Position numbers and translations under genes: made by a program. From Thermoproteus sp. CP80 (GTDB taxonomy: Archaea > Thermoproteota > Thermoprotei > Thermoproteales > Thermoproteaceae), in assembly GCF_002077075.2 (NCBI RefSeq), contig NZ_LCWM02000016.1, forward strand, positions 1 to 37,383: 37,383 bases of DNA, written 5' to 3'. The notes beneath the pieces were generated by a model, which saw only the letters and a list, made by a program, of their open reading frames with translations, was not told the origin of the DNA and made no database searches. Every line of letters starts with the position of its first letter. Within the stretch, counting starts at the first letter, position 1. Positions 9,698-30,628 of the stretch are shown piece by piece.

Positions 9698-10231
9698 TCA
9701 CTCCACGGGGAGCCCTCCGGTCCTCACCTCCCTGAGGTCGGGGGTCTCGTAGGCTAGATTGACGGCGAGGTAGTAGATCGCCAGCGCGGCGGCGGCCCAG
9801 ACCAGGTAGTCCAGGGGGTAGGGGATCGCCGGGGTGCTCAAGTTGCCGAGGGAGCCGAAGTAGGAGATGGCGGCCAGGGCTATGTTGTAGATGGGTATCC
9901 AGACGGCGGCCTTGACGTCGGGGTGTCTCGACTTGGCCCAGAGGTACGCGAAGGCGAATATCTGGATGGCCGCCAGGGCGAGCCAGTAGGCCAGGAACGA
10001 CAAAACGTCGCCGAGGCCCGAGAGCCAGCCGAGGTGCCAGGCGGCCACGGCGACCGCCAGCAGAGCCCAGTAGACCGCGGAGAACGCGGCGGCCTCGGCC
10101 CTCGACATGCCCGTCGAGCCCTTGTAGGGGCCGAGGAGCAGTAGCGGGAGGCCTATGAGCATGCTTACTATCGCGGCGTCTACGTAGAGCCACGAGGACC
10201 AGTATATGAGGAGGGACGACACGACGATCAT
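9698..10231 (-). CDS. Membrane protein of unknown function (about five TM segments)
   Basis: 177 residues from ATG 10231, the first start after an in-frame TAA. Hydrophobic segments lie at about residues 3-33, 48-72, 78-99, 108-124 and 136-155. Tryptophan and tyrosine flank the segments and the C-terminal tail is acidic. It converges with the MBL gene, with 4 bp between the stop codons. Unlike most genes here it has no clear TATA box at leaderless distance. No family is recognised. Confidence 0.6.
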   Translation of the reverse strand: MIVVSSLLIYWSSWLYVDAAIVSMLIGLPLLLLGPYKGSTGMSRAEAAAFSAVYWALLAVAVAAWHLGWLSGLGDVLSFLAYWLALAAIQIFAFAYLWAKSRHPDVKAAVWIPIYNIALAAISYFGSLGNLSTPAIPYPLDYLVWAAAALAIYYLAVNLAYETPDLREVRTGGLPVE

Positions 10232-10411: not shown

Positions 10412-10464
10412 CTCACGCATCCCGTCGGAATTTTTTATATAACATAGGTAATACGACATCACTG

Positions 10465-10475
10465 TTTTAAATATA
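10465..10475 (+). promoter_or_regulatory. TATA box for the structured RNA
   Basis: TTTTAAATATA is centred about 21 nt before the first paired base of the RNA at 10491. No ORF follows at leaderless distance on this strand. Confidence 0.6.
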
Positions 10476-10490
10476 GATGGTGCATAGCTA

Positions 10491-10633
10491 CGTCCCACAG
10501 TCCTCGCCGCCTCCGGCCTAAGCCTTCGCGGCCCAGCCGCGGAGGCGACGGGGGATAAACCGGCGGCGTCGGACGGGGCAACCCGCCCGATGTTGCCGGT
10601 GAAATCGGCGCCGACGGCGGGGGCTGTGGGACG
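10491..10633 (+). ncRNA. Unidentified highly structured RNA of about 143 nt
   Basis: Positions 10491-10509 pair with 10615-10633 in an uninterrupted 19-bp closing stem. Inside it, 10559-10577 pairs with 10582-10600 as an 18-bp hairpin with one A-C mismatch and a GCAA (GNRA) tetraloop at 10578-10581. Positions 10523-10532 pair with 10536-10545 around a CCA loop. Both long stems contain G-U pairs (two in the closing stem, three in the hairpin) that would be A-C mismatches on the other strand, so the plus strand is the functional one. A TATA box precedes it and a pyrimidine-rich tract (cctctcctcctctcctt) follows. It lacks the conserved RNase P core and SRP S-domain motifs. It lies convergent to the RNase Z-like gene. 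Confidence 0.75.
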
Positions 10634-10668
10634 CCTCTCCTCCTCTCCTTGGACAATAGACTGTCGCC

Positions 10669-11424
10669 CTAGATCCTCAGCCACATGTTGTCCTCGGCGA
10701 TCACCACGTCCTTTCTGCCGATGTTCTTCACGTCCCTATAGATTGTGGGGTTGAAGCCGTCGTCTATATGGGTGAGGACGAGCAGATGGGCCCCGGCGGC
10801 GTCGGCCTCCCTGACGGCTTGGAGGGTCGTGGTGTGGGCGTATTTCGCGCATATCTCCGCGTTCTGCTCGTTGCACGTCGCCTCATGTATCAACACATCG
10901 ACGCCGCGGCCGAGCCGCCTCACAGGTCCGCAGTTGGGGGAGGTGTCCCCCGTGAAAAGCAACGACGTGCCGCCTCCCTCCAGCCTGTAGGCGTAGGCCT
11001 CCTCGGCGGTGTGGTGGCACGCCTGGGCCGCCTCCACCTTCAGGCCTGGGAGCTCCAGGAGGGGGCCCGGCGCGGCTTGCCTTATCTCGATCTGGTAGTT
11101 CACGGCCTTGAGGAGGTTGGGCGACACGGCCTCTATGGATCTGGCCACTATCTTGGGCGCCACCACGACGAGCTTCTTCCTCCTCCCCTCTATATGCGCC
11201 TGGAAGAGGGCCTCGGGCAGGCCGAGGAAGTGGTCCATGTGGCTGTGCGTCACGAACACGTAGTCTATCTCGGTCAGAAGCCCCCTGTCGGACAGGCGGT
11301 AGTGGCAGCCGACCCCGCAGTCGACTACGGCGAGCCCTCCCTCGGCCTCGAGCAGATTGGCCGCCCTCCACCTCCTGGAGCCTGGGCTCCCTCCGGCGCC
11401 CGACCCGATTACGTGTAGATACAT
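10669..11424 (-). CDS. RNase Z-like metallo-beta-lactamase hydrolase
   Basis: 251 residues from ATG 11424, four bases after the stop of the ABC ATPase gene, so it is likely the last gene of that operon. The N-terminus (MYLHVIGSGAGGSPG) and VTHSHMDHFLGLPEAL carry the first metal ligands. HHTAEEAYAY, LLFTGDTSP, IHEATC and LTHIDDGF supply the rest. This layout matches the tRNase Z / PhnP-like branch of MBL enzymes, which cleave phosphodiesters. It lacks an obvious long exosite arm. Its place at the end of an importer operon favours action on an imported phosphodiester or cyclic phosphate over tRNA processing, but that is inference. Confidence 0.75.
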   Translation of the reverse strand: MYLHVIGSGAGGSPGSRRWRAANLLEAEGGLAVVDCGVGCHYRLSDRGLLTEIDYVFVTHSHMDHFLGLPEALFQAHIEGRRKKLVVVAPKIVARSIEAVSPNLLKAVNYQIEIRQAAPGPLLELPGLKVEAAQACHHTAEEAYAYRLEGGGTSLLFTGDTSPNCGPVRRLGRGVDVLIHEATCNEQNAEICAKYAHTTTLQAVREADAAGAHLLVLTHIDDGFNPTIYRDVKNIGRKDVVIAEDNMWLRI

Positions 11425-15669: not shown

Positions 15670-17004
15670 CTACACGCCGGCTCGGCTCCTGGGGCCTGCC
15701 CCCTTGCCCAACGCCGATTCGAGCATGCGCCTGGCCGTGTGGTAGCGGCGGCAGTCGGGGCACATGTAGAGCCACTCAGGGTCGCCCTTTATACCCATCC
15801 TCCTCTTGACCGTCTCGATGTGCTTAAGCGTGTCGAAGGGCCTGCCGCATGACTTGCACCTCACCACGTAGTCCACGGCCTTCTCCTCGACCTCGGGCGG
15901 AAGCGAGTCGTGCCTCCCGACCGCTATGGCCTTCTCCGGGCATGCCTCCTCGCAGTACCCACAGCCGACGCACCTCAACGGATTCAACGTGAGCCTTATC
16001 GCGTCGCCCGTCCTCGAGACGTCGAAAGCCCTCTGGGGACATTTGGCGAAACAGACGCCGCAGAGCGAGCATTTGTCCGGGTCCACGTCGACCCTATACA
16101 TCTTGAGCGCCTGGGCCCTCCTGCCCGTGTACGCGTCCCTGAACTTGGAGAGCGCCTCAATGTAGTCCCTGCGCCGCGAGCCGGAGTAGGACATGGCCCT
16201 CGGGGCGGTCCGCACGACGACCCTATCCTCGCTCTGCTCCTTCTCGAAGCCGAAGGCCTCGGCGACCTCCTCCACCACCCTCAGCCCGGCCTTGGCCCCG
16301 GCGACGGGGCACTTCGGGTCGGGGCAGTACGCCTCCACCTCCCCCGCCGCCGCGGCGGCCTCCAGGACCCACTCGGGGCCCAGCGCGCCTATGCAGGGCA
16401 GCCTGTAGACGTACCTCCCCTCGCCGCTCGCCTCAAGCGACTTGTGGCAGGTAAACGCGATGCGCGATATGCCGTGTAGCCTCGCCTTGGCGAACGCCGC
16501 CGATATCTCCACGTCGTCCGCCCCCGGCGTCGAGAGGGCGCCGGTGGGGCAGGCCGCGACGCAGAGGCCGCACTCGACGCATTTAGAGGGGTCCAACGAG
16601 ATCGACCTGTCGGCGAGCCTCAGGGCCCCGGCGGGACAGGCGTCGACGCACTCGGAGCAGCCGAACCTCGCCATGCAGAGCTCGGGCGAGAGCTGGGGGA
16701 CGGCCCTCTTGACAAATATCTCACCTCTCAGCAGATCCCTTCTGGCGACCGCCTTGCTGGCCTCCAGGTGGAACTGCGTCCTCCTCGCCCTCAGCTGGGC
16801 CGTCGCTACCTCCACGGCGGAAGAGGCCTTGGCCACGTGGACCTCGAGGGGGTGGAGGCCCTTGGGGAGCTCGGGCGGGCCCTCCGCCTCCCTCAGCACG
16901 ACGACTATCTGGGCCCCCGGGTTGTCCCTCGCGACGGCCTCTAGGTCGGCCCTCGAGGGGTCCTCGACGACTACTACCTTCCCGTCGCTACCGAGGATCT
17001 TCAT
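15670..17004 (-). CDS. Polyferredoxin with MvhD-like and zinc-ribbon segments (SreD-like)
   Basis: 444 residues; the start overlaps the chaperone gene by 17 nt. Four ferredoxin-type cysteine sets are visible: C-x6-C-x2-C-x3-CPAG near 110-125, CVECGLCVAACPTG, CSLCGVCFAKCPQ and CVGCGYCEEACPE. Between pairs 2 and 3 lies a hydrogenase delta-subunit-like piece (FTCHKSLEA ... RLPCIGALGPEW ... AYCPDPKCP). The end has CKSCGRPF ... MCPDCRRY, a zinc ribbon. The architecture resembles SreD of the Acidianus sulfur reductase operon. It could relay electrons to or from the membrane complex in the cytoplasm. It has no Tat signal, so it stays inside the cell. Confidence 0.82.
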   Translation of the reverse strand: MKILGSDGKVVVVEDPSRADLEAVARDNPGAQIVVVLREAEGPPELPKGLHPLEVHVAKASSAVEVATAQLRARRTQFHLEASKAVARRDLLRGEIFVKRAVPQLSPELCMARFGCSECVDACPAGALRLADRSISLDPSKCVECGLCVAACPTGALSTPGADDVEISAAFAKARLHGISRIAFTCHKSLEASGEGRYVYRLPCIGALGPEWVLEAAAAAGEVEAYCPDPKCPVAGAKAGLRVVEEVAEAFGFEKEQSEDRVVVRTAPRAMSYSGSRRRDYIEALSKFRDAYTGRRAQALKMYRVDVDPDKCSLCGVCFAKCPQRAFDVSRTGDAIRLTLNPLRCVGCGYCEEACPEKAIAVGRHDSLPPEVEEKAVDYVVRCKSCGRPFDTLKHIETVKRRMGIKGDPEWLYMCPDCRRYHTARRMLESALGKGAGPRSRAGV

Positions 17005-17644
17005 CTTCGCTCATGATTATCTCCATTATATCTCTATCCTGCCTGAGGAACTCCCTGGTGAATAGAAGCGCCTCCCTCACGTACTCCGTCGAGGCGTGTT
17101 TCAGAGCCCTCCTGACGAACACCGGGACCCAAGTCAATAGATGGTTTGTCAAGAACCGACTCCCGCCCTCCAGATATCTCGACGGGTCCTCAGCCTCCTG
17201 TTCCTTGAAGGCGAGGTACGACATGAAGGCGAGCTCCACCGATATGTGGTCCGCCCTCAGGTCCCTGAAGCTCCTCTCAAAGCCGGCGCCGTATTCGGCG
17301 TAGAACCTCCTCACGGCCTCCTCGACGGATAGGTCCAGATAGCCCGTGTGTAGATAGCCCTCGAAGGGCGGCACGGCGTAGTCTATCCTCGTCAGGTCCA
17401 CCTCTATGGGCGTCAAGTCGTCGTAGTCATCCACCCTCTTCGCCAGCCCTATCAACGCGTCCAGGTGCTTGAAGTCGTATATCTTGGCGAGTGTCCTTCT
17501 GGCAGTCTCGACGGCCTCCAGCTTGGAGGAGACCAGCTCCTGGAAATCCGACAGCCTGTAGGGATATATGAAGACGGAGGAGAGGAAGTCGTAGAGGATG
17601 GAGCGGAAAAAGGAGGTTTGTTTGGAGAGCTGCAGGAGCATCAC
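16988..17644 (-). CDS. TorD/DmsD-like molybdoenzyme chaperone (SreE-like)
   Basis: 218 residues; ATG 17644 overlaps the stop of the FeS subunit gene by four bases (ATGA). The protein is all-helical. It carries the short N-terminal motif YDFLSSVFIYPYR, the central DYAVPPFEGYLHTGYLDLS segment (the E/P-x-x-x-Y region around the TorD PPY/D motif), and FRDLRADHISVELAFMSYLA. That last part matches the TorD hallmark of D-H-x-x-x-E-L-x-F-M. Such chaperones bind the Tat leader of the catalytic subunit until the cofactor is inserted. The target is the 1240-residue protein encoded two genes upstream. Confidence 0.85.
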   Translation of the reverse strand: MMLLQLSKQTSFFRSILYDFLSSVFIYPYRLSDFQELVSSKLEAVETARRTLAKIYDFKHLDALIGLAKRVDDYDDLTPIEVDLTRIDYAVPPFEGYLHTGYLDLSVEEAVRRFYAEYGAGFERSFRDLRADHISVELAFMSYLAFKEQEAEDPSRYLEGGSRFLTNHLLTWVPVFVRRALKHASTEYVREALLFTREFLRQDRDIMEIIMSEDEDPR

Positions 17645-30354: not shown

Positions 30355-30628
30355 CGCAGCCGGCTGAGCCTCAAGCCGGCGGATCAAGCCGTCGAGCGGG
30401 GGAGGCGGATCTGTAGGCCTCCTGGAGGAGGCCGTTTCATCGAGGCGGACGCCGCCTCTCGGGGCCTCACGCCGGAGGCCTAGAGGTATTGGACGCACCT
30501 ATTTATTAGCTCCCCCGGCCCACTCCCCTCAGGAGGCCCTCAGACGGATCCCGCGGGCCTGCCGGCTCGGGGACGCCGCTGTGGCCCGCCGCGCCTAAGG
30601 GGCCGCGGCGGCTCCCCTCGGATCTCCG

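Follow-up and report, generated by a model that had tools for sequence, protein, structure and literature searches.

A conserved 143-nt structured RNA of Thermoproteus and Pyrobaculum with an invariant palindromic junction strand

The window analysed here is the whole of contig NZ_LCWM02000016.1 (37,383 nt; C64 in our numbering) of Thermoproteus sp. CP80, whose fragmented genome is 77% complete and which shares its genus with two of the comparison genomes, G002 and G005, which we take to be T. tenax and T. uzoniensis. A 143-nt RNA gene lies on its plus strand (Table 1). Upstream of it is a 177-aa hydrophobic ORF without a Pfam or NCBIfam match, and a gene converging on it from the other side is RNase Z-like, with matches to Lactamase_B_2 (2e-21) and to TIGR02651 (2.6e-36, below the cut-off of that model).

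Table 1 Features of the RNA locus and other elements of the window.
Feature	Position	Strand	Remarks
Hydrophobic ORF	9698-10231	-	177 aa
Upstream promoter element	10438-10454	+	two TAWTAC-like half sites, TATAAC-N5-TAATAC, one helical turn apart
TATA box region CTGTTTTAAAT	10462-10472	+	family consensus CTGTTATAAAT over 17 loci
TATA-like box TTTTAAAT	10465-10472	+	first T 26 nt upstream of the RNA
RNA gene	10491-10633	+	143 nt; full-length match to covariance model R1, 128.8 bits
P1, 5' strand	10491-10509	+	19 bp with 10615-10633
P1, 3' strand	10615-10633	+	from folding
P2 hairpin	10510-10554	+	lower stem 10510-10515/10549-10554, upper stem 10522-10532/10536-10546
Conserved GGGGAUAA	10551-10558	+	3' side of lower P2 and junction AUAA
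P3 hairpin	10559-10600	+	18 bp, single A.C mismatch, GCAA loop
GAAAUCGGCGCCGA	10601-10614	+	junction (GAAA), then the invariant palindrome of P4 (10 nt); at 90 C predicted to be open
Palindrome UCGGCGCCGA (P4)	10605-10614	+	tiny 3-bp hairpin
Pyrimidine-rich tail CCTCTCCTCCTCTCCTT	10634-10650	+	17 nt, directly 3' of P1; probable terminator region
RNase Z-like gene	10669-11424	-	converges on the RNA
PyrR201 gene	30412-30479	-	H/ACA-like sRNA (RF02801), 63.9 bits

The RNA has a minimum free energy of -110 kcal/mol, against -74.3 +/- 4.5 kcal/mol for 200 dinucleotide shuffles, none of which was as low (z -7.9). Folding recovered both the 19-bp closing stem (P1) and the GCAA-capped 18-bp hairpin (P3) of the original prediction, the latter with one mismatch. 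The hairpin described there as smaller (P2) also exists, but it has 17 bp in two parts of 6 and 11 bp. The closing stem and two hairpins of that description are joined by a fourth element, the palindrome P4.

The plus strand had been assigned from G-U pairs, which alone do not settle the matter: for 6 of 18 copies the fold of the minus strand is either better than that of the plus strand or no more than 4 kcal/mol worse. What does fix the strand is the position of the promoter, the tail and the covariance model score (128.8 bits on the plus strand, 24.4 on the minus strand). As predicted, a TATA box stands at the proper spacing, starting 26 nt upstream of the stem, and a pyrimidine-rich tail comes straight after it. 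The sequence CTGTTATAAAT is common to the aligned upstream regions, about 27 nt 5' of the RNA, and further upstream come two TAWTAC half sites with an 11-bp spacing, whose distance from the TATA box is constant in most copies. When 14 genomes were searched for the upstream element plus TATA box with two mismatches allowed, most of them yielded this RNA and other hits were few; the conserved promoter is nearly unique to this RNA gene. A regulon sharing the promoter was rejected, since the other matches were few and those inspected had no similar RNA downstream. Nearly every copy has a pyrimidine tract after P1, and promoter and tail are conserved together with the RNA as a single unit.

BLAST found matches in 15 of 41 relatives, all from two genera of one taxonomic family, and a covariance model (R1) was built from 18 of the sequences so found, including that of the window. 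The model identified 20 copies in 15 genomes of Thermoproteus and Pyrobaculum, each spanning the full model length, with one or two copies per genome and two in five genomes. The conservation in relatives for which the original prediction called is thus present by both methods. The window RNA matches model positions 1-146, has its TATA box about 26 nt upstream and is a member of the RNA family. Among the Pyrobaculum genomes, G012, G010, G009 and G011 are presumably P. aerophilum, P. islandicum, P. calidifontis and P. neutrophilum, while G014 is P. oguniense and G013 is Pyrobaculum sp. WP30; the RNA occupies 16931-17077 in P. aerophilum, 1034040-1034187 in P. oguniense and, in Thermoproteus, 50494-50637 in T. 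tenax. The 62 other genomes of the class among the 81 searched, including the rest of the order, gave no significant match to the model. The original prediction proposed a new family of Thermoproteales; its range is narrower, being limited to Thermoproteus and Pyrobaculum, and the searches turned up no member in the order's other families.

Four of the 19 genomes of the taxonomic family (G004, G006, G008, and G017), all fragmented assemblies, had no significant match to the model. SRP RNA was likewise undetected in at least G004 and G008. Because G004 is rated 99% complete and yet has no SRP RNA match, GC-rich structured RNAs may be missing from fragmented assemblies. SRP RNA was detected in G006 and G017 despite the lack of a significant match to R1, so the new RNA may be truly absent or diverged there. 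The Thermoproteus genome G004 contains a 95-nt GC-rich hairpin without P2 (G004:C139:10878-10972, plus strand; L134:1501-1595; 29 bits, E 0.02), which may or may not be a minimal or degenerate relative of the RNA.

Covariation was computed on a sequence-only MAFFT alignment in which no structure was used. Standard pairs occupy 98.2% of the pair cells, and 18 of 40 pairs show two-sided changes. The covariation score of 0.338 falls to 0.186 on shuffling and does not exceed 0.109 on sliding. By Fitch parsimony on a tree from FastTree, double compensatory changes number 37 and compatible single ones 43, against 13 that break a pair. Compensatory changes occur in both long stems, as the original prediction had anticipated for a real RNA, and are two-sided in 10 of the 16 modelled P1 pairs. 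P2 varies between species in sequence and length, and the hairpin refolds in every copy. The mismatch position of P3 is A.C in 14 copies, G.U in three, and G-C in one; the exchange of A.C for G.U would fit a conserved wobble geometry. Since the fold has been kept by matching mutations in most of the Thermoproteus and Pyrobaculum genomes examined, the RNA is very probably functional. Single-base indels in the core leave no conserved reading frame, which argues against an encoded peptide. The GCAA loop of P3 varies among relatives and was ruled out as a functional contact, and a K-turn in the internal loop of P2 was rejected because the required G.A pairs are not conserved. In both copies of G016 and G007 (L012, L014), P2 is about 32 nt longer, suggesting homogenisation between paralogues.

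Rfam 15 gave no match for the window RNA and none that was credible in 16 related loci, so that no known class was found there. Pyrobac-1 RNA (RF01722; Weinberg et al. 2010, PMC2864571) is also an orphan structured RNA of Pyrobaculum obtained by comparative genomics, but it has 60 positions, does not match the new RNA, and occupies different loci in eight genomes that also carry the latter. The PyrR families of H/ACA-like sRNAs in Pyrobaculum are likewise lineage-restricted and structured, but they are about 61-68 nt long and have a guide architecture; the only PyrR match to the window RNA was at chance level (PyrR205, 14 bits, opposite strand). The RNA is a new family, with an earlier mention possible in the small-RNA literature of Pyrobaculum. 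Newness is meant here at the level of the RNA family: the RNA does not belong to any of the families that could be tested, nor is it a variant of one, and it may still perform a known job. The P. oguniense genome paper reports 145 RNA genes, comprising 3 rRNA, SRP RNA, RNase P RNA, 47 tRNA genes and one pseudogene, 83 C/D box, and 9 H/ACA-like genes (PMC3558965). Because these categories sum to 145, the new RNA of that genome is not among its annotated genes. Pyrobaculum is among the best RNA-annotated crenarchaeal genera, yet neither Rfam nor the annotation of P. oguniense contains this strongly conserved 143-nt RNA gene. Libraries built for guide-sized small RNAs would presumably miss an RNA of 143 nt.

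Convergence on an RNase Z-like gene is true of the window but not general across the RNA family, whose neighbours differ. Thermoproteus copies adjoin RNase Z-like and ABC genes, or an amino-acid transporter (the latter names, like those that follow, read from translations). The main copy in Pyrobaculum adjoins a homoserine kinase, a cyclase-like gene or a glycosyltransferase, and second copies adjoin tpi in two Thermoproteus genomes. RNA loci are syntenic inside species groups; neighbours change between lineages while the unit of promoter, RNA, and tail stays constant, indicating a stand-alone gene. An RNA of the replication origin was considered, as some copies are close to base 1 of their records, and rejected because the main Orc1/Cdc6 gene is far off; in P. 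aerophilum it is at 410 kb and the RNA at 17 kb. A viral or mobile origin was also rejected, as there was no match among viral contigs. Sequence patterns matched in Myxococcales, Nocardia and a pseudomonadote MAG were regarded as fortuitous. The second copies beside the triosephosphate isomerase-like gene (L016, L020) are about 210-225 nt from it. PMC5867862 cites a report of a cis-antisense RNA to tpi from Pyrobaculum; that RNA and the tpi-adjacent second copies are probably unrelated.

It is improbable that the RNA is a diverged housekeeping RNA (RNase P, SRP, or an H/ACA or C/D guide) missed by the models, even though such RNAs are often unusual in these organisms, as illustrated by type T RNase P and the H/ACA-like PyrR families. 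The absence of RNase P and SRP signatures, noted at the outset, agrees with the location of both RNAs at other loci. Type T RNase P RNA (RF02357) is likewise compact, GC-rich, and stand-alone in the same organisms, but it lies at different loci in all nine genomes tested (G000:C16:57157-57364 in the source genome), and its model does not match the window RNA even at E<=10. Archaeal SRP (7S) RNA (RF01857) also stands alone and has a long closing stem; its model, however, has 317 positions, it and the 143-nt RNA do not match, and its candidate in P. aerophilum (1191955-1192128) is apart from the new RNA. Regarding guides, the RNA has no ACA end, a pyrimidine tract following P1 instead, no conserved guide pocket in its stems, and on inspection neither a C (RUGAUGA) nor a D (CUGA) box in its 143 nt. 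C/D box sRNAs are about 50-70 nt long. Slightly less probable still is a 5' leader or riboswitch-like cis-regulator of the adjacent gene, a reading that the well-structured intergenic RNA and its conserved junction nucleotides would fit, as in ligand-binding RNAs. The downstream gene in the window is oriented toward the RNA, the pyrimidine tail sits directly 3' of P1, and the flanking genes (RNase Z-like, amino-acid transporter, homoserine kinase, tpi, and others) vary in identity and orientation.

The long terminal inverted repeat and the two copies in five genomes would also be expected of a small inverted-repeat element (MITE) whose terminal repeats mimic an RNA stem. We consider this the least credible alternative: merely one or two copies occur per genome and are syntenic inside species groups, promoter and tail are conserved beyond the repeat, covariation extends to the inner stems, no flanking duplication was seen, and viral contigs contain no match. 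A regulatory small RNA whose unpaired junction strands base-pair with rRNA or mRNAs is the strongest of the competitors, though still unlikely. Its invariant 14-nt strand is predicted to be exposed, its own promoter is possibly regulated, and trans-acting sRNAs are known in archaea (PMC5867862). The RNA is, however, mostly a rigid GC-rich stem; AAATCGGCGCCGAC matches other sites at chance level, none of them common to several species; and complementarity to rRNA is not conserved: P. aerophilum has at most a 14-nt run and T. tenax one of 11 nt, and the two lie in different places. The lack of conserved rRNA complementarity and of shared targets argues against simple base-pairing regulation. Antisense targets of the invariant strand were also sought and rejected, with matches at chance level.

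The best overall explanation is a stand-alone non-coding RNA of about 143 nt working in trans as a ribonucleoprotein scaffold, to which we assign a probability of roughly 0.6. Its parts differ in strength. Judging from the sequence comparisons, a real RNA gene with a promoter of its own is almost certain; nearly every complete genome of the two genera carries it, and this, the dedicated promoter, and dozens of compensatory mutations indicate a real function. Action in trans, and not on neighbouring genes, is highly likely, and binding of the scaffold by protein is somewhat favoured. The analysis identified neither a partner protein nor a co-inherited gene, which counts against the overall explanation.

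The strongest functional clue is AAAUCGGCGCCGAC, the invariant junction strand that holds a perfect 10-nt palindrome and is likely a dimerisation or protein-binding site. The palindrome UCGGCGCCGA is identical in 17 of 18 copies, and the remaining copy has CCGGCGCCGG, which is likewise palindromic. At 90 C, P1-P3 are predicted to stay folded and P4 has a predicted pairing probability of 0.1 or less, leaving AAAUCGGCGCCGAC exposed; the computed energy of the 10-mer self-duplex is still favourable at this temperature (-6.9 kcal/mol). An invariant palindrome would be just as compatible with a hairpin as with a dimer or a protein site, and covariation gives no preference among them. GGGGAUAA resembles an 8-mer of the rRNA operon, but with no longer runs in common this was judged coincidental.

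We propose that transcription would start from the TATA promoter at or beside the first base of P1 and end within the pyrimidine tract. As covariation shows, P1, P2, and P3 surround a central junction as a heat-stable scaffold, with AAAUCGGCGCCGAC, predicted to be unpaired, and GGGGAUAA as the putative working part. Acting in trans, the RNA would serve as the scaffold of a ribonucleoprotein, and the palindrome would either join two RNA molecules through a 10-bp intermolecular duplex or form a protein-binding site. Homodimerisation through the palindrome is a tentative suggestion. More doubtful is the full picture of an important RNP RNA of Thermoproteus and Pyrobaculum that homodimerises through the central-junction palindrome and has no counterpart among known families; if true, it would be an RNA machine of a kind not represented among them. 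The alignment, the covariance model, and the invariant palindrome make the function of the RNA directly testable.

Two further observations concern known RNAs in these genomes. The window also carries a PyrR201 H/ACA-like sRNA gene (Table 1). In the Pyrobaculum genome G016, besides the normal RNase P-T gene (196 bits), a second match above the gathering threshold (84.8 bits) was found at G016:C1:567368-567547 on the plus strand (L100:869-1048), which may be a diverged paralogue or pseudogene.
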